Positions 2,260 to 12,779 of a stretch of 25,813 nt of DNA are shown here, piece after piece. The DNA lies in the IMG/VR virus record IMGVR_UViG_3300032516_000177, positions 1 to 25,813 of that record; one strand, 5' to 3'. Numbering within the stretch: the stretch's first letter is position 1; each line of letters starts with the position of its first letter. The notes beneath the pieces are model-generated. The model saw only the letters and a list, made by a program, of their open reading frames with translations, was not told the origin of the DNA and did not search any database. Origin of the DNA: a virus. Made by a program: the position numbers and the translations under genes.

Positions 2260-2613
2260 ATGTACAAAATTAGAAAAGAATTTCATTTTAGTGCTAGCCA
2301 CATTCTTAATCATTTACCGGAGGATCATCCCTGTTCAAGATTGCATGGTCATAATTACATTATTACTTGTGAGTTTGCAAGTAAAGAACTTAATGATGTA
2401 GGATTTGTAATTGATTATCGTGCTCTTGAACCTATAAAGAAGTTTATTGATGATAACTTTGATCATAGACATTTAAATGATCATATGGCAAGAAATCCTA
2501 CTGCTGAAAATATAGCAAGGCTACTCTTTACCTTGTTTTGTGGTGAGTTCCCAACACTTGTTGCAGTAGAAGTAAGTGAAACTCCTAAAACAAGTGCTAG
2601 ATATGAATGTTAA
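2260..2613 (+). CDS. queD: 6-carboxy-5,6,7,8-tetrahydropterin synthase
   Basis: A 117-aa member of the 6-pyruvoyl-tetrahydropterin synthase/QueD family, close to the usual length. It turns dihydroneopterin triphosphate into 6-carboxytetrahydropterin, the second step of 7-deazaguanine synthesis. Visible residues are the zinc-binding histidines H14 (FSASH), H29 and H31 (LHGH), the catalytic cysteine C25 between them, DHRHLND (68-74), PTAENIA (80-86) and E107 (SETP). It is followed with an 11-bp overlap by QueE, which acts next. The start follows a 12-bp gap with no Shine-Dalgarno. Confidence 0.9.
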   Translation: MYKIRKEFHFSASHILNHLPEDHPCSRLHGHNYIITCEFASKELNDVGFVIDYRALEPIKKFIDDNFDHRHLNDHMARNPTAENIARLLFTLFCGEFPTLVAVEVSETPKTSARYEC

Positions 2614-3373
2614 ACAAATTATATCAGCGGAAGACTATAAGATTAGAAAAGTCTTTCATAAGGAGGGAGGGAACTATCTTAACATCTCTGAATTCTATTA
2701 TGATACTATCCAAGGGGAAGGAATATATCTTGGGCATCCTGCAGCATTTATAAGATTGCAGAATTGTACAATGAATTGTTCCTATTGTGATACTACAGAA
2801 GTATGGAGGTATGGGAGCCCTTATTCCTTTTATGAGATAAATGAATTAATGCTAGCACATGATATTCTTTATCAATTAAAACATGGTCAACATCTGGTTT
2901 TCACAGGGGGGAGTCCTTTATTACAGCAAGATAAGATTAAAAAGTTTCTTATCATGTTTAATAAAACTTTTAACTTTCTTCCCTTTGTTGAAATTGAAAA
3001 TGAATGTACTCTTTTACCAAGTGATAATTTAATTCCCTTTGTTAATTGTTGGAATAACTCACCTAAACTTGCAGAAAGTGGAGTCCCTATTGAGATTAGA
3101 TATCGAGAACAAATAATTAAAAAATTGGCAGGGTTACAAAATTCATGGTTTAAGTTCGTTGTATCTATTGAAGATGAATGGGATGAAATTGATAATTATT
3201 ATCTTTTTAATAAATTGATTAAAAAAGAACAGATTATATTAATGCCATTAGGAACAACAAGAATTGAATTAGAATCAAATCGTGAGGCAGTTCTAAAAAT
3301 AGCCGTGGAACAAGGAGTTAGGTATTGTTCAAGGGAACATATTGTGCTTTGGGATAAGCGCATTGGGGTGTAA
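2603..3373 (+). CDS. queE: 7-carboxy-7-deazaguanine synthase (radical SAM)
   Basis: A 256-aa QueE: it rearranges 6-carboxytetrahydropterin into 7-carboxy-7-deazaguanine (CDG) using a [4Fe-4S] cluster and S-adenosylmethionine. The family signatures are QGEG (37-40), the cluster motif C55-x3-C59-x2-C62 in NCTMNCSYCDT, and GGSP (102-105) in place of the common GGEP. The C-terminus ends in REHIVLWDKRIGV. I chose the ATG at 2603 over a GTG at 2576 because it gives a short overlap with queD and the QGEG motif then sits at a normal distance from the N-terminus. It is the last gene before the second conserved promoter-like element. Confidence 0.88.
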   Translation: MNVKQIISAEDYKIRKVFHKEGGNYLNISEFYYDTIQGEGIYLGHPAAFIRLQNCTMNCSYCDTTEVWRYGSPYSFYEINELMLAHDILYQLKHGQHLVFTGGSPLLQQDKIKKFLIMFNKTFNFLPFVEIENECTLLPSDNLIPFVNCWNNSPKLAESGVPIEIRYREQIIKKLAGLQNSWFKFVVSIEDEWDEIDNYYLFNKLIKKEQIILMPLGTTRIELESNREAVLKIAVEQGVRYCSREHIVLWDKRIGV

Positions 3374-3446: not shown

Positions 3447-4289
3447 ATGGCAAACGAAAAGCAGTTGCGTAAAGCCGCAGCAGAATTGAATTCCGTATTG
3501 TTTGAGACAGGAGATGAGCAAGCAATTGACATCAAAGCAAGTGTAAAAGTCCTCATCGAGGCTATTAAAGAGGCAGCATCACTTCTTACCCCTGATGATG
3601 ACATCTCTGAAGTTACTCAAGCAGTTATTGATGAACTTGTTCCTCCTACTCCTAAGAAAGGAAAAGTTGGAAAAGCAAAACCTCCTGTGGAGGAAGAAGA
3701 GGATGAGGATGAGGGTGAACCAGAAGATGAGGATGAGGATGAGGATGAGGGTGAACCAGAAGATGAGGAAGAAAAGGATCTCAAAGCGCAAGTTGAAGAC
3801 GCAGAGAAACTAGCTGACTTAAAAATTCTTGTTAAAGAAAACAAAGAGTTTAAAACCCTTAAGGCTGATTTAGCCTCCTACAAGAAGGCTGATGATCTAA
3901 GAGATGACATGCTGGCTATTCTTGAGGAAGAAGAAGAGGAGGATATTCCTGAAAAACTTCACAAGAAAAACATTGCTAAGAAAAAAGTGAATTCTAAGGA
4001 AGATGAAGATGAAGATGAGGAAGAAACTCCTAAGAAGAAAAGAGCCGGTGGTCCTCCAAAAGGTGTAAAACCCAGTTTTAAGAAAGAGGGTTCGATGGCA
4101 CAGTTTATGGATGAAACTGTTAAAGAAGGAGGAACTTGGGAAGAAATATTTGCTGTAATAAGCAAAGAAGCCAAGAAACGTGGTGTGAAAACAACTCTGT
4201 CTACAATTAAAGCACACACAAAATTCCGGCTCAGTAAGGACGCTAAGTTCCTTGGAAAACTCAAAATGAAAGAGGATGGAATTGAGTGA
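3447..4289 (+). CDS. Acidic low-complexity protein with C-terminal basic domain, unknown function
   Basis: A 280-aa protein in three parts. Residues 1-75 look helical and folded. Residues 76-210 alternate between highly acidic runs ([11 protein letters not shown] repeats, then EEEEEE and EDEDEDEEE) and basic patches (KKR, KKKV). Residues 211-280 form a compact, lysine-rich domain with TWEEIF and [13 protein letters not shown] that could bind nucleic acid or protein. The charge pattern resembles the linker of the SSB-like protein at 15928. I start at the ATG at 3447 and not at the in-frame TTG at 3438. It is the first gene after P2, so it is probably made in quantity. Function unknown. Confidence 0.7.
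3708..3770 (+). repeat. Tandem 36-bp-period repeat coding for DEGEPEDE
   Basis: A 26-bp sequence starting GATGAGGGTGAACC at 3708 recurs at 3744, a 36-bp (12-codon) period, with GAT/GAG triplets between. It encodes repeated acidic residues around GEP. Replication slippage is the likely origin, and copy number may vary between related phages. Confidence 0.6.
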
Positions 4290-4827
4290 GACACTCATTC
4301 AATCAATTTTACGACAACTGGGAGAGGATCCTGAGCGAGAAGGTCTTAAGGATACTCCCAGTAGAGTCGTAAAATCCTGGAGTGAATTATATGCTGGGTA
4401 TGGTAAAGACGTATCCAGCATCTTCACTATTTTTACAGATGTTCACGATTATTGTCAAATAGTGATATGTAAAAATATAGAAATGTATTCTATTTGTGAG
4501 CATCATATGTTACCTTTTATTGGAAGAGCTCATGTAGCATATCTACCAGATAAAAAAGTAATAGGATTATCCAAACTTGCACGACTTGTTGATATTTATG
4601 CAAGACGTTTACAAATACAAGAACGAATTGGTGAACAAGTAACCGACGCACTTATGCAATATCTACAACCAAAGGCAGCAGCATGTATCATTGAAGCATC
4701 ACATCTTTGTATGCGTATGCGAGGAGTAGGTAAACAAGATTCAACAATGGTAACTTCTTCAATGAAAGGAGAGTTTCTACAGGATACTGCTATGAGGTCT
4801 GAATTATTACACCTACTTAAACTATGA
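4276..4827 (+). CDS. folE: GTP cyclohydrolase I
   Basis: A 183-aa type I GTP cyclohydrolase, which converts GTP to dihydroneopterin triphosphate and formate and supplies QueD. Zinc and catalytic residues are C74-E-H76-H77 in [10 protein letters not shown], and H143 with C145 in [26 protein letters not shown] (26-35) is also typical. The length is near that of compact bacterial FolE. It overlaps the acidic protein by 14 bp and the next gene by 4 bp. In a phage with QueD, QueE, QueC and a DpdA-like gene, its role is most likely deazaguanine supply and not folate. Confidence 0.93.
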
Positions 4828-5846
4828 TTAATTCACTAACATATCTAACACGTGGCTGTCCAAGACATTGTGAATATTGTGCCCTACGTGAAGCGGTAGG
4901 TATTGGTAAACAGTTAGACGTGCGAGGGTGGAAGGAAGCCTTTCGTATATTACATGAACTTAATGTGGATTTTAATCTTGTACTTGGTAACGAAACATGG
5001 TTGTTAGGTACAGGTTTAATTGATATATTTAAAGATAATAAAATTCCTTACGCCCTTTACACCACTTGCCCAGAACCAATATTTAGTAAACATAAATATG
5101 AATTATTTGACTCAGGAGTTATTGATAATTTATCCTGTGGAATTGATTATCCCATTATCGAGGGATTATTAATTGATGATGATTCCTATGCTAAATCTAA
5201 ATCAGCTTGGTGGGGTTTTAAATGGATTAAACAATTTTACCCAGAGGTTGACACGCAAGGTACTATTACCATTCATAAAAAGAATTTACCATACGTCTTG
5301 GCTCTTGTGAAGTCCTTATCTCAAATAGGAGTCTTTGTAGGGATTAATTTTATACATTGGAATAGAGATGGTAAGTATGATTTCTTTCCAAAGAAGGAAG
5401 AGATTGCCGATTTGTTGTTTACAAAGGATGATTATATTGATGTTACAAGGATAATGTATCAAGTAAGAAACCTACCGGGTAATTTATTACAGAATCCAGA
5501 ATTTATTGCCCAACCCCCTTCCTTATTACTTAATATGGGATGGCACTGCCACGGTAATCCTTATGGTGGACCAACTGTTGATTCCGATGGGAAGTTAAGA
5601 TGTTGTGGTTATAGAAGGGGGGAAGAGACTTCTAAATTATCTATCTTTGATTTACCTAAAAGATTACTTGATTGGAAGTGGGCTGTTTGGGAAGATGCAA
5701 TGCGCTGTCCTGGATGTGCTTGGTCATATCCTTGGATGTATAATTACTGGGAAAGAAATGATCGTGAGTTGGGTAAGAAAGTTTTTTCTCAGCACGCTGG
5801 AAAACATATCGATGAAAATAAATGGTCTAATAGAAAAATAAAATGA
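4824..5846 (+). CDS. Radical SAM protein with extra C-terminal cysteines, unknown substrate
   Basis: A 340-aa radical SAM enzyme. The cluster motif C12-x3-C16-x2-C19 (GCPRHCEYC) lies unusually close to the N-terminus. The C-terminal third has a second set of cysteines ([31 protein letters not shown]) like the auxiliary-cluster region of SPASM or related proteins. It is distinct from QueE. It overlaps folE and the methyltransferase gene by 4 bp each, within a run containing queC, a deacetylase, a glycosyltransferase and dpdA-like genes. Its context suggests it alters a deazaguanine nucleotide or the modified base, but the substrate cannot be read from the sequence. Confidence 0.75.
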
Positions 5847-6517
5847 AAAGTTACGACGAAGAAACTATCGAATTGTTCAACTTATCCATCATAGAAGATG
5901 AATTTGATGATAAATTACAAAACAATGATATCTATGATGGATTTGTTTCTGGGGGTAAAGAATTGGAAAGATTAATTTCTACAAAGGATATTATGACAGA
6001 TAAATCCCCGGATGAACTTCATGTATTAAATGTTGGTGCTGGGCAGGCTGATTTAAAAGTTATATTCCCACCCAATTCATTAATTATTAATTTAGAACCG
6101 TGTCCTCAAAGGGTGACAGAAAATACAATTGAAGGATGGTGTGAGGCAGTACCAGAAGATTTGGTATTACAAGACGTCGTTATATGTTGGGGAGTGCTTT
6201 GCTTTGTAAGAAGCCTGCCTGAAACTCTTATAAATTTTAATCGGGTTTTATTTAGAGGGGGGTATTTAATTGTTGATGTGGTTACATTTTCCACAATGCC
6301 GTTACCACAAACAGTTCATCCTGACTCCTTTATACGATATGTAAGACTATTTGGATTTGAATTAGAAGAAAGAATAAACTTCGGACCAGAGTATCATCAA
6401 AGGGTTGGTTATCGTTTTAAACTGGTAGAGGAATTCAATTACAAGAGATTAAGAATGCCACAATGTGGTGAAAAAATAAATAACTATCTACCAGAAAGGG
6501 ACTGGTTCATGAGATAA
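5843..6517 (+). CDS. Class I SAM-dependent methyltransferase-like protein
   Basis: A 224-aa Rossmann-fold protein. Motif I is VLNVGAGQADL (61-71), followed by the acidic strand IINLEPCP (81-88), then DVVICWGVLCFV, and LFRGGYLIVDVV, the usual motif after the post-motif III helix in class I methyltransferases. There is no DPPY or NPPY motif, so a classical DNA adenine or cytosine-N4 methyltransferase is unlikely; the fold is closer to small-molecule methyltransferases. It lies between the radical SAM gene and queC with a 4-bp overlap and a 1-bp gap. A role in tailoring the deazaguanine base is possible but unproven. Confidence 0.65.
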   Translation: MKSYDEETIELFNLSIIEDEFDDKLQNNDIYDGFVSGGKELERLISTKDIMTDKSPDELHVLNVGAGQADLKVIFPPNSLIINLEPCPQRVTENTIEGWCEAVPEDLVLQDVVICWGVLCFVRSLPETLINFNRVLFRGGYLIVDVVTFSTMPLPQTVHPDSFIRYVRLFGFELEERINFGPEYHQRVGYRFKLVEEFNYKRLRMPQCGEKINNYLPERDWFMR

Positions 6518-6518
6518 T

Positions 6519-7067
6519 ATGAATAAAAAGTATGATTTACTTATCCTCTTTAGTGGGGGATACGATAGCACTTTGCTTGTACAATTGGCAATGAACATGG
6601 ACGCTAATATTCTATGTTTACTATTTGACTACGGACAAAAGCATATTATAGAATTAGAATATGCAAAGGAGTTTTGTTTAAAGAGAAATATTCCTTACGA
6701 GATAATTAAGCTAAGTTTACCAATTGCCTCAAACCTTACGGATGAAAAGAAAACATATGAAGGAGTCAATATACATCATGTACCAGCAAGAAATCTTATG
6801 TTTCTTTCTATCGCAGCAAGTATTGCAGAGAGTAAAGAAATACTTACAATTTGGTATGGTGCTAATTATGAGGATAGAGAAAAACTCTTCCCAGATTGTT
6901 ACCAGGAGTGGATTTTTAAACTAAATGAATTACTTGAGATTAATGGAAGTCTTAAAATTACAGTTGAAGCTCCTTTACTTGGTATGTCTAAAGAAACAAT
7001 AAAAACATTGGCAAAAGTTTTTAATATTAATGATGATAAAGTATTTAGCGGTTATGAAAAAGAGTAA
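6519..7067 (+). CDS. queC: QueC-like 7-cyano-7-deazaguanine synthase lacking the zinc site
   Basis: A 182-aa N-type ATP pyrophosphatase. QueC turns CDG into the amide (ADG) and then into preQ0, using ATP and ammonia. SGGYDST (P-loop-like, 12-18), FDYGQKH (37-43) and VPARNLMFLSIA are clear family signatures, as is YPDC-like FPDCYQEW. Typical QueC is about 220-230 aa and ends with a CY...CGxCxxC zinc site. Here the protein stops at VFSGYEKE: the first cysteine is replaced by glycine and the other three are absent. No cysteine motif appears in the overlapping downstream frame, so a simple frameshift is not the explanation. It may make ADG, act only in part, or use another stabilising element. 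Confidence 0.82.
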   Translation: MNKKYDLLILFSGGYDSTLLVQLAMNMDANILCLLFDYGQKHIIELEYAKEFCLKRNIPYEIIKLSLPIASNLTDEKKTYEGVNIHHVPARNLMFLSIAASIAESKEILTIWYGANYEDREKLFPDCYQEWIFKLNELLEINGSLKITVEAPLLGMSKETIKTLAKVFNINDDKVFSGYEKE

Positions 7068-7437
7068 AGACAAGACGTTTACTAAATTAGTAGACAAACA
7101 GCACAGTCCATTAGTGATACGCAAGTACACTCATTGGGGATTTCCAATCTATGTTGGTTTAATTGCCGACCAAGATTTAACAAACCTTGACAAAAAGGTT
7201 GTTAAGTTTATGAAGAAGTTTAAAAAGAAGAATTGGGTGAACAATATCCAAACACTTCGTAATTTAGCAGGAGCCATGACGGATTATCTAAATGATTCTT
7301 ATGACACCGCAGAAGGTGTAGCAGTTGTTTTCTATGTTGATAAATGTTTTATCTCTTCTTTGTACGGTGACTTTATGAATCATGAATCCTGTAGGATAGA
7401 GTTTTACGGTTTACTTAATATGAGTACAGGAGTATGA
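7054..7437 (+). CDS. Hypothetical protein in the modification cluster
   Basis: A 127-aa protein, unrecognised. It starts MKKSKDKTF at 7054 (14-bp overlap with queC); an upstream in-frame ATG at 7030 is less likely because it gives a longer overlap. It has a basic middle (KKVVKFMKKFKKKNW) and a mixed alpha/beta C-terminus with VAVVFYVDKCFISSLYGDF. No membrane segment or known motif is visible. It overlaps the deacetylase gene by 4 bp. Its location between queC and the deacetylase suggests a part in the same pathway, but that is inference. Confidence 0.65.
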   Translation: MKKSKDKTFTKLVDKQHSPLVIRKYTHWGFPIYVGLIADQDLTNLDKKVVKFMKKFKKKNWVNNIQTLRNLAGAMTDYLNDSYDTAEGVAVVFYVDKCFISSLYGDFMNHESCRIEFYGLLNMSTGV

Positions 7438-7883
7438 CAAAATTTATAATTATAGCACCCCATGCAGATGATGAGGTAATTGGGTGCTACGCTAAATTAG
7501 CCAGATATCAAGTAGCAAAAGTTTTATTTCCAAATAAACCTGCATTAATAGAGGCAAGCGATTCAAGTGAACATTTTAAATTTGGAAGGCAGTTGATTGC
7601 TGATCATAAATATTCAGATAAATATGTCTATCTGTTTCCAGATCCTATATATGAAACGCATCCATTACACAGGGAATTAGGTTCCGACGGGGAACGCCTT
7701 TTGCGAGCCGGTCTGCCTGTTATTTTTTATACAACAAATATGTTAGCCCCATACATTCATGAGGTGAAAGAGGCTGACAAAAAGAGAGATTGTCTATATG
7801 CTTTGTACAATAATAAAAGCAAATTGTGGGAGTATGAACATAAATACTTTTTGTTTGAAGGGTATAATGCCTGGTTGTTATGA
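7434..7883 (+). CDS. PIG-L/LmbE-like N-deacetylase, compact
   Basis: A 149-aa protein beginning with the diagnostic PIG-L/LmbE motif PHADDE (9-14), whose His and second Asp bind zinc and whose first Asp is the catalytic base in this family. A later HPLH (76-79) is a good candidate for the third zinc ligand. Family members remove acetyl groups from N-acetylglucosamine in GlcNAc-PI, mycothiol and bacillithiol precursors and other GlcNAc conjugates. Typical members exceed 200 aa, so this is a short form. It overlaps the glycosyltransferase gene by 4 bp, matching the common pairing of a sugar transferase with a de-N-acetylase. Confidence 0.7.
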   Translation: MTKFIIIAPHADDEVIGCYAKLARYQVAKVLFPNKPALIEASDSSEHFKFGRQLIADHKYSDKYVYLFPDPIYETHPLHRELGSDGERLLRAGLPVIFYTTNMLAPYIHEVKEADKKRDCLYALYNNKSKLWEYEHKYFLFEGYNAWLL

Positions 7884-8806
7884 GTAGACTAATATTAGTA
7901 CCACAATATCCTACTAAACTGAGATATCAGGAATGGTGGTTTGATAGATTCCCTGAGGAGTTTAGTTTCTACTTTAATGAAATCATTGTACTTGGTGGGG
8001 AGGCTCATTATACGATAGAAGACCTTGGTAATAGTTTTGCCCCTGTTGAAGCCTCAATAGCATTTGAATTACTACAAATACAAATTTACAATGAAATGCA
8101 ATTGAAAAAGGATGATATTCTGTTGCTATGTGATTTAAGTTTCCCAGGATTGTTTGCCAATATTTTATTTCATAAACGCCCTAACCGATGTTTTGCTATT
8201 TGTCATGCTACAAGTAAAAATGCACATGATTATTATGCAAAAGATAAGAAAATTAAGTTTCCTATTGAAACTAATCAAGCAAAACTATTTGATGCTATAT
8301 TTGTAGCAACAGAATATCATAAGCATAAATTAAATTGGGGGAATGTTATTGTTCAAGGGTTTCCTAATCCTCCCTTTCCTATCCCTGTACCCACAGCAAA
8401 TAAAGAATATCCAATAATAAGTGTAGCAAGAAATTCAGTACAAAAAAGGACTTTACATATTGAAAAAGAAGTAGAAAAAGCATTTAATACCCAAATAGTT
8501 AGACCAGATGTTCAAACTTGGGAAGAATATTATTCCTTTTTGGCTTCTGCAAAAGTATTATTAATTACTTCAAAGGAAGAGACTTACGGATATCAGGTTG
8601 TTGATGCAGTACTTAATGATTGTATTCCTATTGCCCCGAATCATTTTAGTTATCCTGAACTATTACCTAAAGAATATTTATATAATACGATTGGAGAACT
8701 TATTCAAATAATAATAAAAGCTCTACACAATAAACTATCTGTTCCAGAGTTAAAAGTTCATCCCGATTATTTTTATCAAAATATATATATGTATATGACA
8801 TCATGA
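7880..8806 (+). CDS. GT-B fold glycosyltransferase (GT4-like)
   Basis: A 308-aa protein with two Rossmann-like halves. The C-terminal half has PIISVARNSVQKR (178-190), ASAKVLLITSKEETYGYQVVDAVLND (222-247) and CIPIAPNHFSYPELLP, matching the sugar-nucleotide-binding end of GT4-type enzymes (the E-x-(F/Y)-G-x2-x2-(D/E)-A pattern). The N-terminal half, which would bind the acceptor, includes DDILLLCDLSFPG and an FPNPP linker. It is wedged between the deacetylase and the DpdA-like gene with 4-bp overlaps, so the acceptor may be the modified base in DNA or a precursor. A surface-polysaccharide role is the alternative. Confidence 0.72.
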   Translation: MSRLILVPQYPTKLRYQEWWFDRFPEEFSFYFNEIIVLGGEAHYTIEDLGNSFAPVEASIAFELLQIQIYNEMQLKKDDILLLCDLSFPGLFANILFHKRPNRCFAICHATSKNAHDYYAKDKKIKFPIETNQAKLFDAIFVATEYHKHKLNWGNVIVQGFPNPPFPIPVPTANKEYPIISVARNSVQKRTLHIEKEVEKAFNTQIVRPDVQTWEEYYSFLASAKVLLITSKEETYGYQVVDAVLNDCIPIAPNHFSYPELLPKEYLYNTIGELIQIIIKALHNKLSVPELKVHPDYFYQNIYMYMTS

Positions 8807-9840
8807 AAAAACCAAAAGTAATTTTAGATTCCGGTGCATACACTGCACATAGGAAAGGTAAAAAGATTGACATTGATGACTATGCCGAATACGTAAAAGA
8901 GCATGGTAATGAGTATGATATGTGCTTTAACCTTGATTCAATAGGTAATGCTAAAAAAAGTTATACCAATTGGAAATATCTTCAAAGTAAAGGAGTAGAT
9001 ACTGTCCCTATTTATCACATAGGAACTAATGAAGTTTTCCTCAGGAAGTATTTACGTGAAACTGATTATATTGGCTTAGGAGCAATTGCCAATCTTGAGA
9101 CAACTCAACGATTACTTGGATTAAGTCATATATGGAAAACGTATCTTACAAACAAAGAAGGGATACCCACCGTAAAAGTACATGGATTAGGATTAACGGC
9201 TGTTGATATTATGATTCGTTATCCATGGTATTCCGTTGATAGTTTCACTCCAGTTATTTCTGCGGTATGGGGTAGTGTATTACTACCCAGATTGGATAAT
9301 GATGGTACTCCTCATTATTTTAAACTTGGGATCAGTAAAATATCTGATCAAGGGGACCACAAAGTAGATATGGCAAATAGTTTTCCAAGTCTGCCAGAAA
9401 GGAGTAAAGGAGTTTACTATAAATTGTTTGAAAAGTATGGATTTAAAATAGGGGAAATAGCCTATCAAGTAAAAAAAGATAGGAGAGGAAAACAAGGAGA
9501 AAATGAAAGGAAACCAGTTCCTATGTTTGACTTAATAAAGCCTGCAAATATAAAAACAAGAACGTTAGCAAACAGTTGGGAAGAAAGGATGAGGTGGAAC
9601 CTAACAATGTGGACACACCTTAGAAAAAGGTTACCCATCTATCCAAGACCCTTCGTGGATAAAAATGATGCTTATGAAGAAGAGATAAACAATCATCCAA
9701 AGACAATAATGTATATGGGAGTTTCAACTACAACTCACTTAAACATATTTAATATGATTTCTCCTAAACTTGATATTCTAATAAGTTATGCTTATTTAAC
9801 TGATCCTATTAATAAATTAATTAAAGAGTATATAAAATGA
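8803..9840 (+). CDS. dpdA: DpdA-like DNA 7-deazaguanine transglycosylase
   Basis: A 345-aa TGT-like TIM-barrel protein. Strand-end motifs are VILDSGAYTA (6-15), CFNLDSIGN (41-49), VPIYHIG (68-74), YIGLGAI (89-95), VKVHGLGLTA (124-133) and YPWYSVDSFTP (140-150). DSGA, GLGAI and SVDS are typical of phage DpdA proteins, which exchange guanine in DNA for a deazaguanine base; one of the Asp residues (D9 or D146) would be catalytic. Residues 220-270 are basic and may contact DNA. The presence of all precursor genes in the same operon strongly supports this over a tRNA enzyme. It overlaps its neighbours by 4 bp. Confidence 0.75.
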   Translation: MKKPKVILDSGAYTAHRKGKKIDIDDYAEYVKEHGNEYDMCFNLDSIGNAKKSYTNWKYLQSKGVDTVPIYHIGTNEVFLRKYLRETDYIGLGAIANLETTQRLLGLSHIWKTYLTNKEGIPTVKVHGLGLTAVDIMIRYPWYSVDSFTPVISAVWGSVLLPRLDNDGTPHYFKLGISKISDQGDHKVDMANSFPSLPERSKGVYYKLFEKYGFKIGEIAYQVKKDRRGKQGENERKPVPMFDLIKPANIKTRTLANSWEERMRWNLTMWTHLRKRLPIYPRPFVDKNDAYEEEINNHPKTIMYMGVSTTTHLNIFNMISPKLDILISYAYLTDPINKLIKEYIK

Positions 9841-10520
9841 AAAGGACAAAGGTAAAAGAAATTATTCTTCCACTCTTTACTCTACAAAGGTCAAAAAGAG
9901 TTCTTAAGTCAGGAGTACAGACTTTAAAGGAAGATGTTGAAACTTTTATGATCCCTACCCTACAAAAGTATGGATTTGATGGAAAGTTAGTTCTAGCAAA
10001 GGAGGTAGATAAAAAACATGCTAAGAAAGATTATGAAAGCTATTCACCCGCAAGAACAAGTGCAAGACAATTGTTATATGGTGCTGAAGCAGGGTGGTTT
10101 CTTGAGATTTGGAAGCAAGGTAGGCCAAAGACAAAACTTGTTGTAAAACCATTTGTGAGGGAAGATTTAAAAGCAATAAGAAATTTACCAAGGTATAATT
10201 TAAGAACGATTGTTGCTCAAATGCTAATGACTAATGCCCATCCTCAGGCTCGTATAAAAGCAATATTAGATAAGTTTTATGCATTAGATTTGACATTCTT
10301 AATTATGACAAAAACAGGAATGTTTTGGTTGGGTAAATATCGTTCTATACCATTTGATCAATATGATTTAACCTATCGGAAGGATAAAAAAACATTAGAT
10401 AGATTACGTGTTAAGAATGGTTTTCAAAAAGGAAAGATTCATAGTATTAAAGATTGTTTGGTAGAAGAATTAAAGAAAGAGTTATATTTCTTCAATAAAA
10501 ATAATAAATATGAAAGTTAA
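9837..10520 (+). CDS. Hypothetical basic protein between the DpdA-like and clamp genes
   Basis: A 227-aa lysine- and arginine-rich protein with no motif I recognise. It starts MKRTKVKEI, one of the recurrent M-x-R-T-K N-termini in this window. The middle has aromatic beta-like segments (AGWFLEIWKQ, TLTFLIMTKTGMFWLGKYRS). The pattern is that of a nucleic-acid-binding protein but no fold can be assigned. It overlaps the DpdA-like gene by 4 bp and the clamp gene by 11 bp, which suggests translation coupled to both. It may help DNA modification or replication. Confidence 0.65.
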   Translation: MKRTKVKEIILPLFTLQRSKRVLKSGVQTLKEDVETFMIPTLQKYGFDGKLVLAKEVDKKHAKKDYESYSPARTSARQLLYGAEAGWFLEIWKQGRPKTKLVVKPFVREDLKAIRNLPRYNLRTIVAQMLMTNAHPQARIKAILDKFYALDLTFLIMTKTGMFWLGKYRSIPFDQYDLTYRKDKKTLDRLRVKNGFQKGKIHSIKDCLVEELKKELYFFNKNNKYES

Positions 10521-11532
10521 TAAAGCACAACTACAAAAAGCACTTGAAATTGTCAAGCCAGGACTTGCCAGTAAAGAGCAAATTGAACAATCAACATCCT
10601 TTGCTTTTATAAAGGGAAGGGTGGTTACTTATAATGATGAGATTAGTGTTTCACATCCTGTAAAAGGCCTAGAATTAGAAGGAGCCATTTTAGCAGAGAA
10701 TCTTTATAAGTTTTTAACCAAAATTAAAAAGGAAGAGATTGAATTAGAATTAAAAGACAATGAAATTATTCTAACATCTGAAAAGGCTAAGGCAGGATTA
10801 CTTCTACAAAAGGAAATTAAACTTCCTTTGGAGGAAGGGGTTACTGAAAAGGGGGAATGGTATGATCTACCCGAACACTTTCTAACAGACCTTGCTTTTG
10901 TAATGACAATTTGTGGGAAAGATTTAAGTCGTCCTATTTTAACGGCTTGTCATATAAATAAGGCGGGATTTATTGAAGGTTCTGATGGTTATAGGATAGC
11001 CCGTTGTGAATTAGGAGAGAAATTACCAGTAGATACTTTTCTGTTACCAGCAAAATCCGCAGTTGAGGTAGTAAAAATGAAACCAATTCAGATGGCTGAA
11101 GGAAAAGGATGGATTCATTTTAAAACACCAGCAAGAACAATTATTCACTGTCGTATCCTTTTAGGGGATAGATATCCTACAACAGGATCCTGGTTTAATG
11201 AGGATGGTATTTTAGTTAGGCTTCCAAAAATAACTAATGAAATATTAGCAAGGGCACAGGTATTTGCAAAGAGGGATCATTTACTTGATGAGTCAATTAC
11301 ACTTTCTTTTGAGAAAGGACTTTTTTGTATGACATCCCAATCCGACACAGGTTGGTTTAAAGAGGAGGCAGACATGCGATTTACAAGTACACCTGTTAAG
11401 ATTGATGTAACCCCATACCTGTTAAAAAGTATATTGGAAGAGACAAGCACATTTAAATATACTGAAGATAAACTTACCTTTAAAGGTGAAAGGTGGTATT
11501 ATGTCACAACACTAAGACATCCCAAGAAATGA
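10510..11532 (+). CDS. dnaN: DNA polymerase sliding clamp (beta-clamp-like)
   Basis: A 340-aa divergent beta-type clamp, a little shorter than bacterial DnaN (about 366 aa). Domain 1 starts MKVNKAQLQKALEIVKPGL; the central section LSRPILTACHINKAGFIEGSDGYRIARCEL followed by LPVDTFLLPAKSAVEVVKM is the recognisable domain 2 to 3 region of DnaN; the C-terminal part ends in a short basic tail. It would encircle DNA and tether the polymerase encoded just downstream. The clamp loader is the gene at 14215. Its stop overlaps the next start by 4 bp. Confidence 0.8.
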   Translation: MKVNKAQLQKALEIVKPGLASKEQIEQSTSFAFIKGRVVTYNDEISVSHPVKGLELEGAILAENLYKFLTKIKKEEIELELKDNEIILTSEKAKAGLLLQKEIKLPLEEGVTEKGEWYDLPEHFLTDLAFVMTICGKDLSRPILTACHINKAGFIEGSDGYRIARCELGEKLPVDTFLLPAKSAVEVVKMKPIQMAEGKGWIHFKTPARTIIHCRILLGDRYPTTGSWFNEDGILVRLPKITNEILARAQVFAKRDHLLDESITLSFEKGLFCMTSQSDTGWFKEEADMRFTSTPVKIDVTPYLLKSILEETSTFKYTEDKLTFKGERWYYVTTLRHPKK

Positions 11533-12779
11533 TAGAAGGGTTTTTTACAAAGAAAGAAACGGAATCAAAGTCCCGACCTGCAGGTAAATCTCAATCATGT
11601 GTCTCCTGCGGATTATACAAGGATTGTGACTCCCCAAAAATGGAACCTTATGGTAACTTCAAAAAGAAGATACTTAATATTGGTGAGGCTCCTGGGGAAT
11701 ATGAGGATAGGAATGGAAAACCTTGGCAGGGTAAGATGGGAAGAATGCTACAACAAACCTATGAAGACTTAGATGTTGATTTGTTTGAGGATTGTTTAAA
11801 TATAAATTCAGTAAACTGTCGACCAAAAGATAAGCAAGGTCATAATAGAGCTCCTTCCAATGTAGAGATCGATTGCTGCCGTAAGAGAGTATTCAGTATA
11901 ATAGAGGAATACAAACCCAAGGTAATACTTTTATTAGGAAATGCCCCCTTATATAGCCTTATTGGACATAGATGGAAAAAGGACTTGGGTGGGATTACAA
12001 AGTGGAGAGGATTTACTATTCCTGATCAAGACTTCAAGACTTGGTTATGCCCTACATTTCATCCCAGTTATATTGAAAGGGCTAATAGTATTTCTAACTA
12101 TAAAGGTGAACCTATTGAAAATGTTATTTGGAAACAGGATTTAAAGGAAGCGTTTGGTATGGCAAAGATTCCCTTTCCTGTTTATGTTGAACCTGTAATT
12201 GAAATTATAGAAGACCTATCAGTATTAAAGAAAATAAAATATGAGAGTGCTTTTGATTATGAAACAACTGGATTAAAGCCTCACGCCGTAGGACATAGAA
12301 TTATTTGTGTTTCAATAGCTGATACAGAAAACCATGCGTATGTGTTTTTAATGCCAAAGACAAGAAAAGAAAGGGAGCCATTCATACAATATTTAATAAA
12401 CCCAGAGTTAAAAAAAGTTGCTCAAAATATGAAGTATGAACATTGTTGGAGTAAAGTAAGACTGGGAGTTGACGTACAAGGTTGGGAATGGGATACAATG
12501 CTAGCAACTCATTTGTTTGATAATAGACCTGGGATTTGTGGATTAAAGTTTCAAGTCTATGTACAATTTGGAGTTGTTGATTACTCCAGTGATGTAGATC
12601 CTTACATGAAAGCAGTAGATAATATAAATGCTAATTCATTAAATAAGATGCTTGACTTATTAAAAACACCAAATGGTAAGGAGGTATTATGTAAATATTG
12701 TGGATTAGATAGCATAAATGAATTGAGACTTGCAAATAGACAACGAATGAATTTATTACCTTTTTACTATGTACTATGA
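11529..12779 (+). CDS. Uracil-DNA glycosylase (family 4-like) fused to 3'-5' exonuclease domain
   Basis: A 416-aa two-domain protein. Residues 20-210 are a family 4/5-like UDG: cysteines C24, C27, C97 and C116/C117 are placed to hold a [4Fe-4S] cluster, motif A is GEAPGEYED (52-60) with GKPWQGKMG, and motif B is HPS (178-180). Residues 235-405 are the proofreading exonuclease of family A polymerases: D243-x-E245 (Exo I), N300 region (Exo II, with E304 where Asp is common), D322, and Y390-x3-D394 (Exo III). A polymerase with an N-terminal UDG-like domain is known in SPO1. The frame ends at a 7-bp duplication where the polymerase begins. The start is the ATG overlapping the clamp stop, not an upstream GTG at 11493. 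Confidence 0.82.
   Translation: MIEGFFTKKETESKSRPAGKSQSCVSCGLYKDCDSPKMEPYGNFKKKILNIGEAPGEYEDRNGKPWQGKMGRMLQQTYEDLDVDLFEDCLNINSVNCRPKDKQGHNRAPSNVEIDCCRKRVFSIIEEYKPKVILLLGNAPLYSLIGHRWKKDLGGITKWRGFTIPDQDFKTWLCPTFHPSYIERANSISNYKGEPIENVIWKQDLKEAFGMAKIPFPVYVEPVIEIIEDLSVLKKIKYESAFDYETTGLKPHAVGHRIICVSIADTENHAYVFLMPKTRKEREPFIQYLINPELKKVAQNMKYEHCWSKVRLGVDVQGWEWDTMLATHLFDNRPGICGLKFQVYVQFGVVDYSSDVDPYMKAVDNINANSLNKMLDLLKTPNGKEVLCKYCGLDSINELRLANRQRMNLLPFYYVL
12765..12778 (+). repeat. 7-bp tandem duplication TACTATG at the exonuclease/polymerase junction
   Basis: TACTATG at 12765-12771 is repeated at 12772-12778. Taking out one copy joins the upstream frame (LLPFYY) to the downstream frame (EPEIMNAY) in one continuous UDG-exo-polymerase ORF. 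The duplication creates both the TGA that ends the upstream gene and the ATG-bearing overlap that starts the polymerase. Confidence 0.85.

Follow-up and report, generated by a model that had tools for sequence, protein, structure and literature searches.

The DpdA-dependent preQ0/archaeosine modification of phage DNA (Hutinet et al. 2019, PMC6884629), known from CAjan, Rosebush, 9g and Queuovirinae such as R7M, is the closest described system to the operon reported here, which lies in a linear IMG/VR virus record (IMGVR_UViG_3300032516_000177; 25.8 kb, ~33% GC) that was analysed over its full length and is hereafter termed the window. In the DNA of related phages, minimal FolE/QueD/QueE/QueC sets together with DpdA yield dPreQ0 (PMC6884629). 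Judged from sequence, the window operon likely specifies a DpdA-type 7-deazaguanine DNA modification extended by a sugar-tailoring branch. In the R7M cluster no glycosyltransferase (GT), PIG-L, short-chain dehydrogenase/reductase (SDR) or methyltransferase is annotated and, unlike in the window, there is no radical SAM protein beyond QueE; its QueC is a long form of 468 aa, whereas that of the window is short. Four further phage 7-deazaguanine derivatives, ascribed to Cui et al. in 2023, reportedly also arise through tailoring by phage enzymes and bear small substituents and no sugar. To our knowledge, the known deazaguanine bases of DNA carry small groups, and bulky sugars are known on modified pyrimidines.

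Sugar transfer in related settings has several precedents. As in the window, a phage glycosyltransferase acts on a modified DNA base in the glucosylated hydroxymethylcytosine of T-even phages, although base, acceptor and enzymes differ. The MshA/MshB, BshA/BshB and PIG-A/PIG-L pairs perform the same GT4-type transfer of N-acetylglucosamine (GlcNAc) followed by PIG-L de-N-acetylation; their acceptors are inositol phosphate, malate and phosphatidylinositol, respectively, and the phage proteins are shorter and highly diverged. In huimycin, whose biosynthesis uses FolE, QueD, QueE and QueC homologues together with a methyltransferase and a glycosyltransferase, the 2-amino group of a preQ0-derived core bears GlcNAc; the glycosyltransferase gene belongs to the minimal huimycin cluster (PMC7439116). 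Huimycin and dapiramicin (PMC7439116), in contrast to the product proposed here, are natural products made without DpdA and outside DNA, and the likeness noted here lies in gene content and in the GlcNAc-bearing core. The open-access literature, with most subscription papers and all preprints outside the scope of the search, yielded no glycosylated deazaguanine in DNA and no link to PIG-L; provisionally, the sugar-tailored deazaguanine cassette has not been described previously.

The genes assigned to the proposed pathway are as follows.

2260..2613, + strand: QueD, 6-carboxytetrahydropterin synthase (Pfam PTPS, 4.8e-30; phrog_2389)
2606..3373, + strand: QueE, 7-carboxy-7-deazaguanine (CDG) synthase, radical SAM (phrog_2076, 2.6e-46)
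4276..4827, + strand: FolE, GTP cyclohydrolase I (Pfam GTP_cyclohydroI, 1.9e-70)
4824..5846, + strand: radical SAM enzyme, proposed tailoring enzyme (Pfam, 6.7e-5; Cys pattern)
5843..6517, + strand: class I methyltransferase-like protein (weak match, 0.005-0.007; orthologues 52-69% identical)
6519..7067, + strand: short QueC, CDG-to-preQ0 enzyme (Pfam, 8.9e-35; alignment and signature check)
7030..7437, + strand: o7030, 135 aa, of no known family (family alignment)
7434..7883, + strand: compact PIG-L/LmbE-type de-N-acetylase (Pfam, 0.019; motifs; relatives)
7880..8806, + strand: putative GT-B glycosyltransferase, GT4-like, proposed base glycosyltransferase (phrog_2170, 0.0062; profile searches; motif)
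8803..9840, + strand: DpdA, DNA guanine transglycosylase of the tRNA-guanine transglycosylase (TGT) superfamily (phrog_887, 7.6e-42; tblastn to phage DpdA/queuine transglycosylases)

An earlier note on this DNA had described eight genes at 4276-9840, and all eight open reading frames are present at those positions. Its folE, queC and dpdA calls are secure, and queD and queE, upstream of the run, are added to its list. The radical SAM, PIG-L, GT and methyltransferase calls are backed by orthologue families and motifs but are weak as single sequences. The overlaps of about 4 bp that it described are found as ATGA at six junctions (folE/radical SAM, radical SAM/methyltransferase, o7030/pigL, pigL/gt, gt/dpdA and dpdA/o9837), but the methyltransferase gene and queC are spaced by 1 bp and queC and o7030 overlap by 38 bp.

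Because the single-sequence evidence for the radical SAM protein, PIG-L and GT was weak, families were built from IMG/VR relatives, whose loci carry L numbers below. A search with the GT alignment retrieved 43 viral loci and two contigs filed as cellular genomes, belonging to two unrelated replication types. In near relatives the order QueD-QueE-o3438-FolE-(SDR)-radical SAM-(methyltransferase)-QueC-o7030-PIG-L-GT-DpdA was observed wherever the contig covers it, except that QueC lies upstream of FolE in L008. Group 1 has the polymerase type of the window, and GT adjoins DpdA in most of these phages; in its distant members (L050, L052, L054, L064, L065, L072 and L076), polymerase identity falls to 27% and GT identity is 30-54%, and in some of them the gene order is shuffled while the set is retained (PIG-L-GT-SDR-radical SAM-GT2-DpdA in L052; GT-FolE-DpdA in L064 and L065). 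Group 2 is defined by a family B polymerase fused to a uracil-DNA glycosylase domain, with contigs of up to 248 kb, and carries GT, PIG-L and QueE, and in most records QueC and o7030 as well. Its TGT-fold protein is a distinct one, with the motifs DSGGFQ, HILGG and YDSS. This protein matches phrog_887 in 6 of 10 members, weakly (best 1.4e-6), and aligns with the DpdA profile at E 1.9e-4 and just 48% probability; it is probably a DpdA-like enzyme.

A DpdA or TGT-like protein was found in the fetched flanks (10 kb) of 41 of the 50 GT-bearing loci. After removal of obvious duplicates, a DpdA/TGT relative lay within 10 kb of GT in ~34 of 42 loci, rising to 36 of 42 over whole records, and four of the six records without one are contigs of ~15 kb or less. 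As a rough and sensitivity-limited base rate, tblastn with the window DpdA matched 186 of 50,697 phage records. PIG-L and GT distances tracked those of DpdA beyond polymerase distance (partial r 0.62 and 0.37, permutation p <0.002) in a mirror-tree test that was exploratory, given its many pairs, shared ancestry and small sample, and in L076 and L052 some tailoring genes have diverged less from their window counterparts than FolE or DpdA. A search of phages for near-identical matches to the window found none. Chance assembly of the gene set is excluded, because the same set recurs in diverged phages.

Isolated phages, which were reached via diverged GT homologues, also carry related clusters; tblastn with the radical SAM protein and o7030 against isolates gave no match. 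Xanthomonas phage X1 (L087, OQ427096) has folE, a PP-loop protein, PIG-L, GT, a TGT-like protein, a QueD-like protein and queE in one run; the annotated start of its PIG-L gene (70631-71278) excludes the HVDDE motif, which the open frame upstream contains. The Xanthomonas phage PhiXhv-12 carries Gat-QueC-like, PIG-L and GT genes, and Sinorhizobium phage Phosso carries GT, FolE and queE. In the Pseudomonas PA5oct group, a TGT-like gene overlapping GT is accompanied by QueD-like, NAD-epimerase and queE genes; in PA5oct itself (L086, 222985-225668) a 540-aa TGT-like protein overlaps the GT4-like gene. The transglycosylase-like proteins of PA5oct and X1 have DSGG(F/L)Q plus ISFDAA or ISYDST, and the QueD-like labels in isolates follow from sequence reading and a shared PHROG lacking an assigned function. 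The suggested link between the deazaguanine genes and GT/PIG-L is thus strongly supported by co-occurrence kept in unrelated phage groups and isolates, and the neighbourhood search that the earlier note proposed finds the set in two phage groups, with its order reshuffled in distant members.

These distributions bear on the best-surviving alternative, namely that the phage DNA contains ordinary dPreQ0, or 7-amido-7-deazaguanine (dADG), and that GT and PIG-L act elsewhere, with targets such as teichoic acid, phage proteins or polysaccharide of the host surface. Surface-sugar pathways often contain GT and PIG-L genes, the minimal sets mentioned above give dPreQ0 (PMC6884629), and one record, G001 (L018), has o7030-PIG-L-GT with DpdA undetected. 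Yet the GT family is nearly confined to phages bearing DpdA or TGT, and the gene sits among replication and deazaguanine genes; two unrelated phage groups have it together with o7030 and QueC, and its neighbours include no recurring surface-sugar gene, so that we judge this explanation unlikely.

The preQ0 gene set near dpdA is, by sequence assignment, complete (FolE, QueD, QueE and QueC), since queD and queE lie upstream. Metal and cluster ligands are retained in FolE, QueD and QueE: C74, H76, H77, H143 and C145 of FolE are unchanged in 14 sequences, and the CX3CX2C motif of QueE across 30 relatives. QueE matches the NCBIfam QueE models with E down to 1.4e-15, under the model cut-offs; its listed start is GTG at 2576, and ATG at 2606 is likelier.

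The QueC protein departs from the canonical form, whose signature comprises SGGxDS, YxQxHxxE, VPxRN, YPDC and the zinc motif C(x)8CxxCxxC (PMC13329287). The window protein retains SGGxDS, YxQxHxxE, VPxRN, FPDC and SGY, with FPDC standing where the canonical signature has YPDC; the Y131F variant of E. coli QueC is partly active (PMC13329287). The C-terminal CxxCxxC is missing from the window protein and from 17 of 21 family members, and the protein is therefore named a zinc-less QueC variant rather than canonical QueC. The zinc-less clade comprises the window, L002, L004-L007, L009, L052, L054, L064, L065, L076 and group 2, whereas the zinc form occurs in L008, L050, L072 and L044, again alongside GT, PIG-L and o7030. 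No viral record searched holds two QueC genes, so the two forms look interchangeable.

Loss of the zinc cysteines with retention of the substrate and ATP motifs could also point to a different activity, in which the short QueC is an ATP-dependent ligase that couples CDG to the free amine on the amino sugar that GT and PIG-L would produce, with DpdA inserting the conjugate. Cap9, likewise of ~185 aa but with its cysteine motif retained, couples CDG to a different amine, that of a protein (PMC13329287, PMC13279940), and PIG-L would provide the primary amine. We consider this improbable, given that zinc-type QueC accompanies the same GT/PIG-L/o7030 set in the four records above, none of which adds a second QueC gene; the short QueC is read as a putative working preQ0 synthase, with the Cap9-like role as a minor alternative.

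For the transglycosylase, D9-S10-G11, D45, H127-G128, S144 and D146-S147 are unchanged in 17 sequences. The Pfam TGT model (PF01702) was dropped as a test for DpdA, because it fails to detect DpdA. A target in tRNA, with a glycosylated queuosine-like base in place of a DNA base, was also considered: vertebrate tRNA carries naturally glycosylated queuosine, and some phages with preQ0 genes but without DpdA may act on tRNA (PMC6884629). However, the match of the window protein is to phrog_887, a phage DpdA family, and not to the Pfam tRNA TGT model, which found cellular enzymes only in the same search, and the operon is surrounded by helicase, clamp and polymerase genes, which makes a tRNA target very hard to credit.

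The window copies of the two sugar enzymes, like the radical SAM protein, match individually only under Pfam cut-offs. The GT family matches the glycosyltransferases 5i45 (0.0018) and 2f9f in PDB and Glycos_transf_1 (0.0016); Glycos_transf_1 is detected in 5 of 12 GT relatives, and in most members the C-terminal motif is EX7D, a variant of the GT4 EX7E. The PIG-L protein, short at 149 aa, scores 15.9 bits against a curated Pfam cut-off of 28.2, and 7 of 11 relatives reach the E 0.05 threshold, the best of them at 3.2e-7; the family profile matches the diacetylchitobiose deacetylase 3we7 in PDB. Both HADDE (HxDDE) and HPxH are kept; H10, D12, D13, E14 and H79 are unchanged where the alignment covers them, and HPxH is present in most members, so that motif and relatives together mark the window protein as a putative PIG-L enzyme. 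A small-molecule pathway for a glucosaminide of the bacillithiol or mycothiol kind, with no connection to the base, which GT4 and PIG-L pairs making GlcN-malate (BshA/BshB) and GlcN-inositol (MshA/MshB) might call to mind, as might the annotation of the PhiXhv-12 PIG-L as N-acetylglucosaminyl-malate deacetylase, is the least probable of all, as none of the cassettes has a recognisable partner gene for adding cysteine and the strong linkage is to DpdA, not to thiol or redox genes.

From gene content, we infer the following route for a sugar-tailored DNA base; this covers which sugar is added and where, the sequence of steps, what the radical SAM protein, methyltransferase and o7030 do, and the protective function. 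FolE, QueD, QueE and the short QueC would make preQ0 from GTP, and DpdA would exchange guanine for preQ0 in phage DNA. The GT4-like enzyme would then add a hexose, either on DNA or on the free base. This would most likely be GlcNAc from UDP-GlcNAc, a guess made because PIG-L enzymes act on N-acetylglucosaminyl substrates. De-N-acetylation by the PIG-L-like enzyme would follow, giving glucosamine with its positive charge. Further changes to the sugar or the 7-substituent may come from the radical SAM enzyme, which many relatives pair with an SDR, and from the interchangeable methyltransferases, with o7030 as a conserved partner. As a result, all guanines or a sequence-specific subset would be present as bulky sugar-bearing 7-deazaguanine, blocking host nucleases.

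Several observations weigh against this route. The acceptor is its weakest point: preQ0 offers no obvious hydroxyl, so GT would need N2, an amide, or an amine from a step that escaped recognition; QueF was not among the genes identified. By analogy, the candidate sites are the 2-amino group, for which huimycin is a precedent, and a C7 amide or amine. Both PIG-L and GT of the window are far from characterised members, and donor and acceptor are therefore unreadable from sequence. FolE was found in none of 15 group 2-type records (L038, L044, L060 and L063 among them), four of which are >180 kb, so the host would need to supply dihydroneopterin triphosphate. In the large group 2 genomes the radical SAM homologue is separated from the cassette and adjoins recombination genes; its function may be unrelated. 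L018 and L037 are of useful size, though both are fragments, and no DpdA/TGT relative was detected in either. Finally, no PIG-L match was found in the PA5oct record, and the amino-sugar step therefore looks optional. Of the amino-sugar deazaguanine that the earlier note had suggested, the sugar-bearing form is the best explanation of the data and the amino sugar is plausible through PIG-L, with the PA5oct group as the counterexample; the GlcNAc-to-glucosamine conversion it drew from known pathways is still an analogy.

Some of the putative tailoring genes vary between relatives. In the radical SAM protein, CX3CX2C together with C242, C261, C295 and C298 gives seven cysteines unchanged in 15 sequences, and the four extra invariant cysteines accordingly place it in the auxiliary-cluster (SPASM/twitch-like) type. 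Its AlphaFold model (pLDDT 72.9) gave SkfB, viperin and MoaA as top Foldseek matches, and also DesII and BlsE, at modest TM-scores. One possibility weighed was a diol-dehydratase/SDR pair like AprD4/AprD3 of apramycin, which remains an analogy only. The SDR, which is not in the window, was found in L002, L006, L008, L009 and most distant members, with TGxxxGxG and YxxxK retained. The methyltransferase family has members in the window, L004, L006, L009, L054 and L072; unrelated proteins fill its slot in L005 and L010, that of L010 being a Methyltransf_24 protein (1.5e-17) weakly matching the sugar O-methyltransferase TylF. A fixed GT/PIG-L core with a swappable SDR, methyltransferase and extra GT would resemble sugar tailoring. 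A second glycosyltransferase, of family GT2, lies between the radical SAM gene and dpdA in L052 (12572-13363) and suggests a disaccharide or an alternative sugar.

The best-conserved cassette gene is o7030 (64-76% in near relatives), present in 15 of 16 records searched. Its predicted secondary structure is beta-beta-alpha-alpha-beta-beta-alpha, and the fold search gave no match below E 0.001 (best 0.57 in PDB and 0.039 in BFVD). A T-fold, with which the strand order agrees, was set aside, as dihydroneopterin aldolase and urate oxidase, though they ranked high among the PDB matches, appeared only at E 0.7-0.9, which is not evidence, and a QueF-like role was dropped because the QueF-recalling GDF...C stretch follows the last strand and is not in the helical part. 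Directly after dpdA in L004 (8549-8962) and L009 (12807-13202) stands a Nudix-like protein (GX5EX7REXXEEXG by eye), which possibly cleans modified nucleotides out of the pool.

Nearly every gene of the window lies on the same strand. A helicase loader and a DnaB-like helicase (410-2247) precede queD and queE, after which come the acidic protein, folE, the radical SAM, methyltransferase-like, queC, o7030, PIG-L-like and GT genes, dpdA and o9837; downstream follow a clamp, a uracil-DNA glycosylase-exonuclease fusion, a family A polymerase and a clamp loader. Two of these genes complete the feature list.

3447..4289, + strand: low-complexity acidic protein, conserved in its C-terminal part (homologues 5' of folE in L002, L004, L005, L006, L008 and L009)
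9837..10520, + strand: o9837, a gene without a family match (ATGA overlap with dpdA; homologues in L002, L004, L005, L006 and L010)

Profile searches found no family for the 9837..10520 product. At 11493-12779 of the window, a uracil-DNA glycosylase domain is fused to a 3'-5' exonuclease, and a separate family A polymerase comes after it. Two cassette contigs are binned with cellular genomes, L076 (PUNT01000062.1, filed as a Halanaerobiales metagenome-assembled genome) and L077 (filed as a Woesearchaeota one); the binning of L076 suggests that group 1 phages may infect an anaerobic Firmicute.

Taken more broadly, the cassette could define a widespread class of amino-sugar 7-deazaguanines, glucosaminyl and variably deoxygenated, epimerised or O-methylated, in phage DNA. 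These would be made by a mobile set of radical SAM, SDR, methyltransferase, zinc-less QueC, o7030, PIG-L and GT genes combined with at least two types of TGT-fold transglycosylase, with o7030 and the radical SAM enzyme performing new base or sugar chemistry; we hold this wider proposal tentatively, at somewhat less than even chances. Cultured phages with related clusters make the sugar-deazaguanine claim testable by nucleoside mass spectrometry. Also in the cassette are a QueC lacking the zinc motif, a conserved protein outside known families and a radical SAM enzyme with perhaps new chemistry. If the sugar-deazaguanine claim is true, the modified base would be of a new kind for DNA and unite the deazaguanine and bulky-sugar strategies; phages would gain a guanine that is bulky and possibly positively charged, GT4 and PIG-L enzymes would gain a new substrate, and the base may bear on evasion of Type IV restriction and CRISPR.

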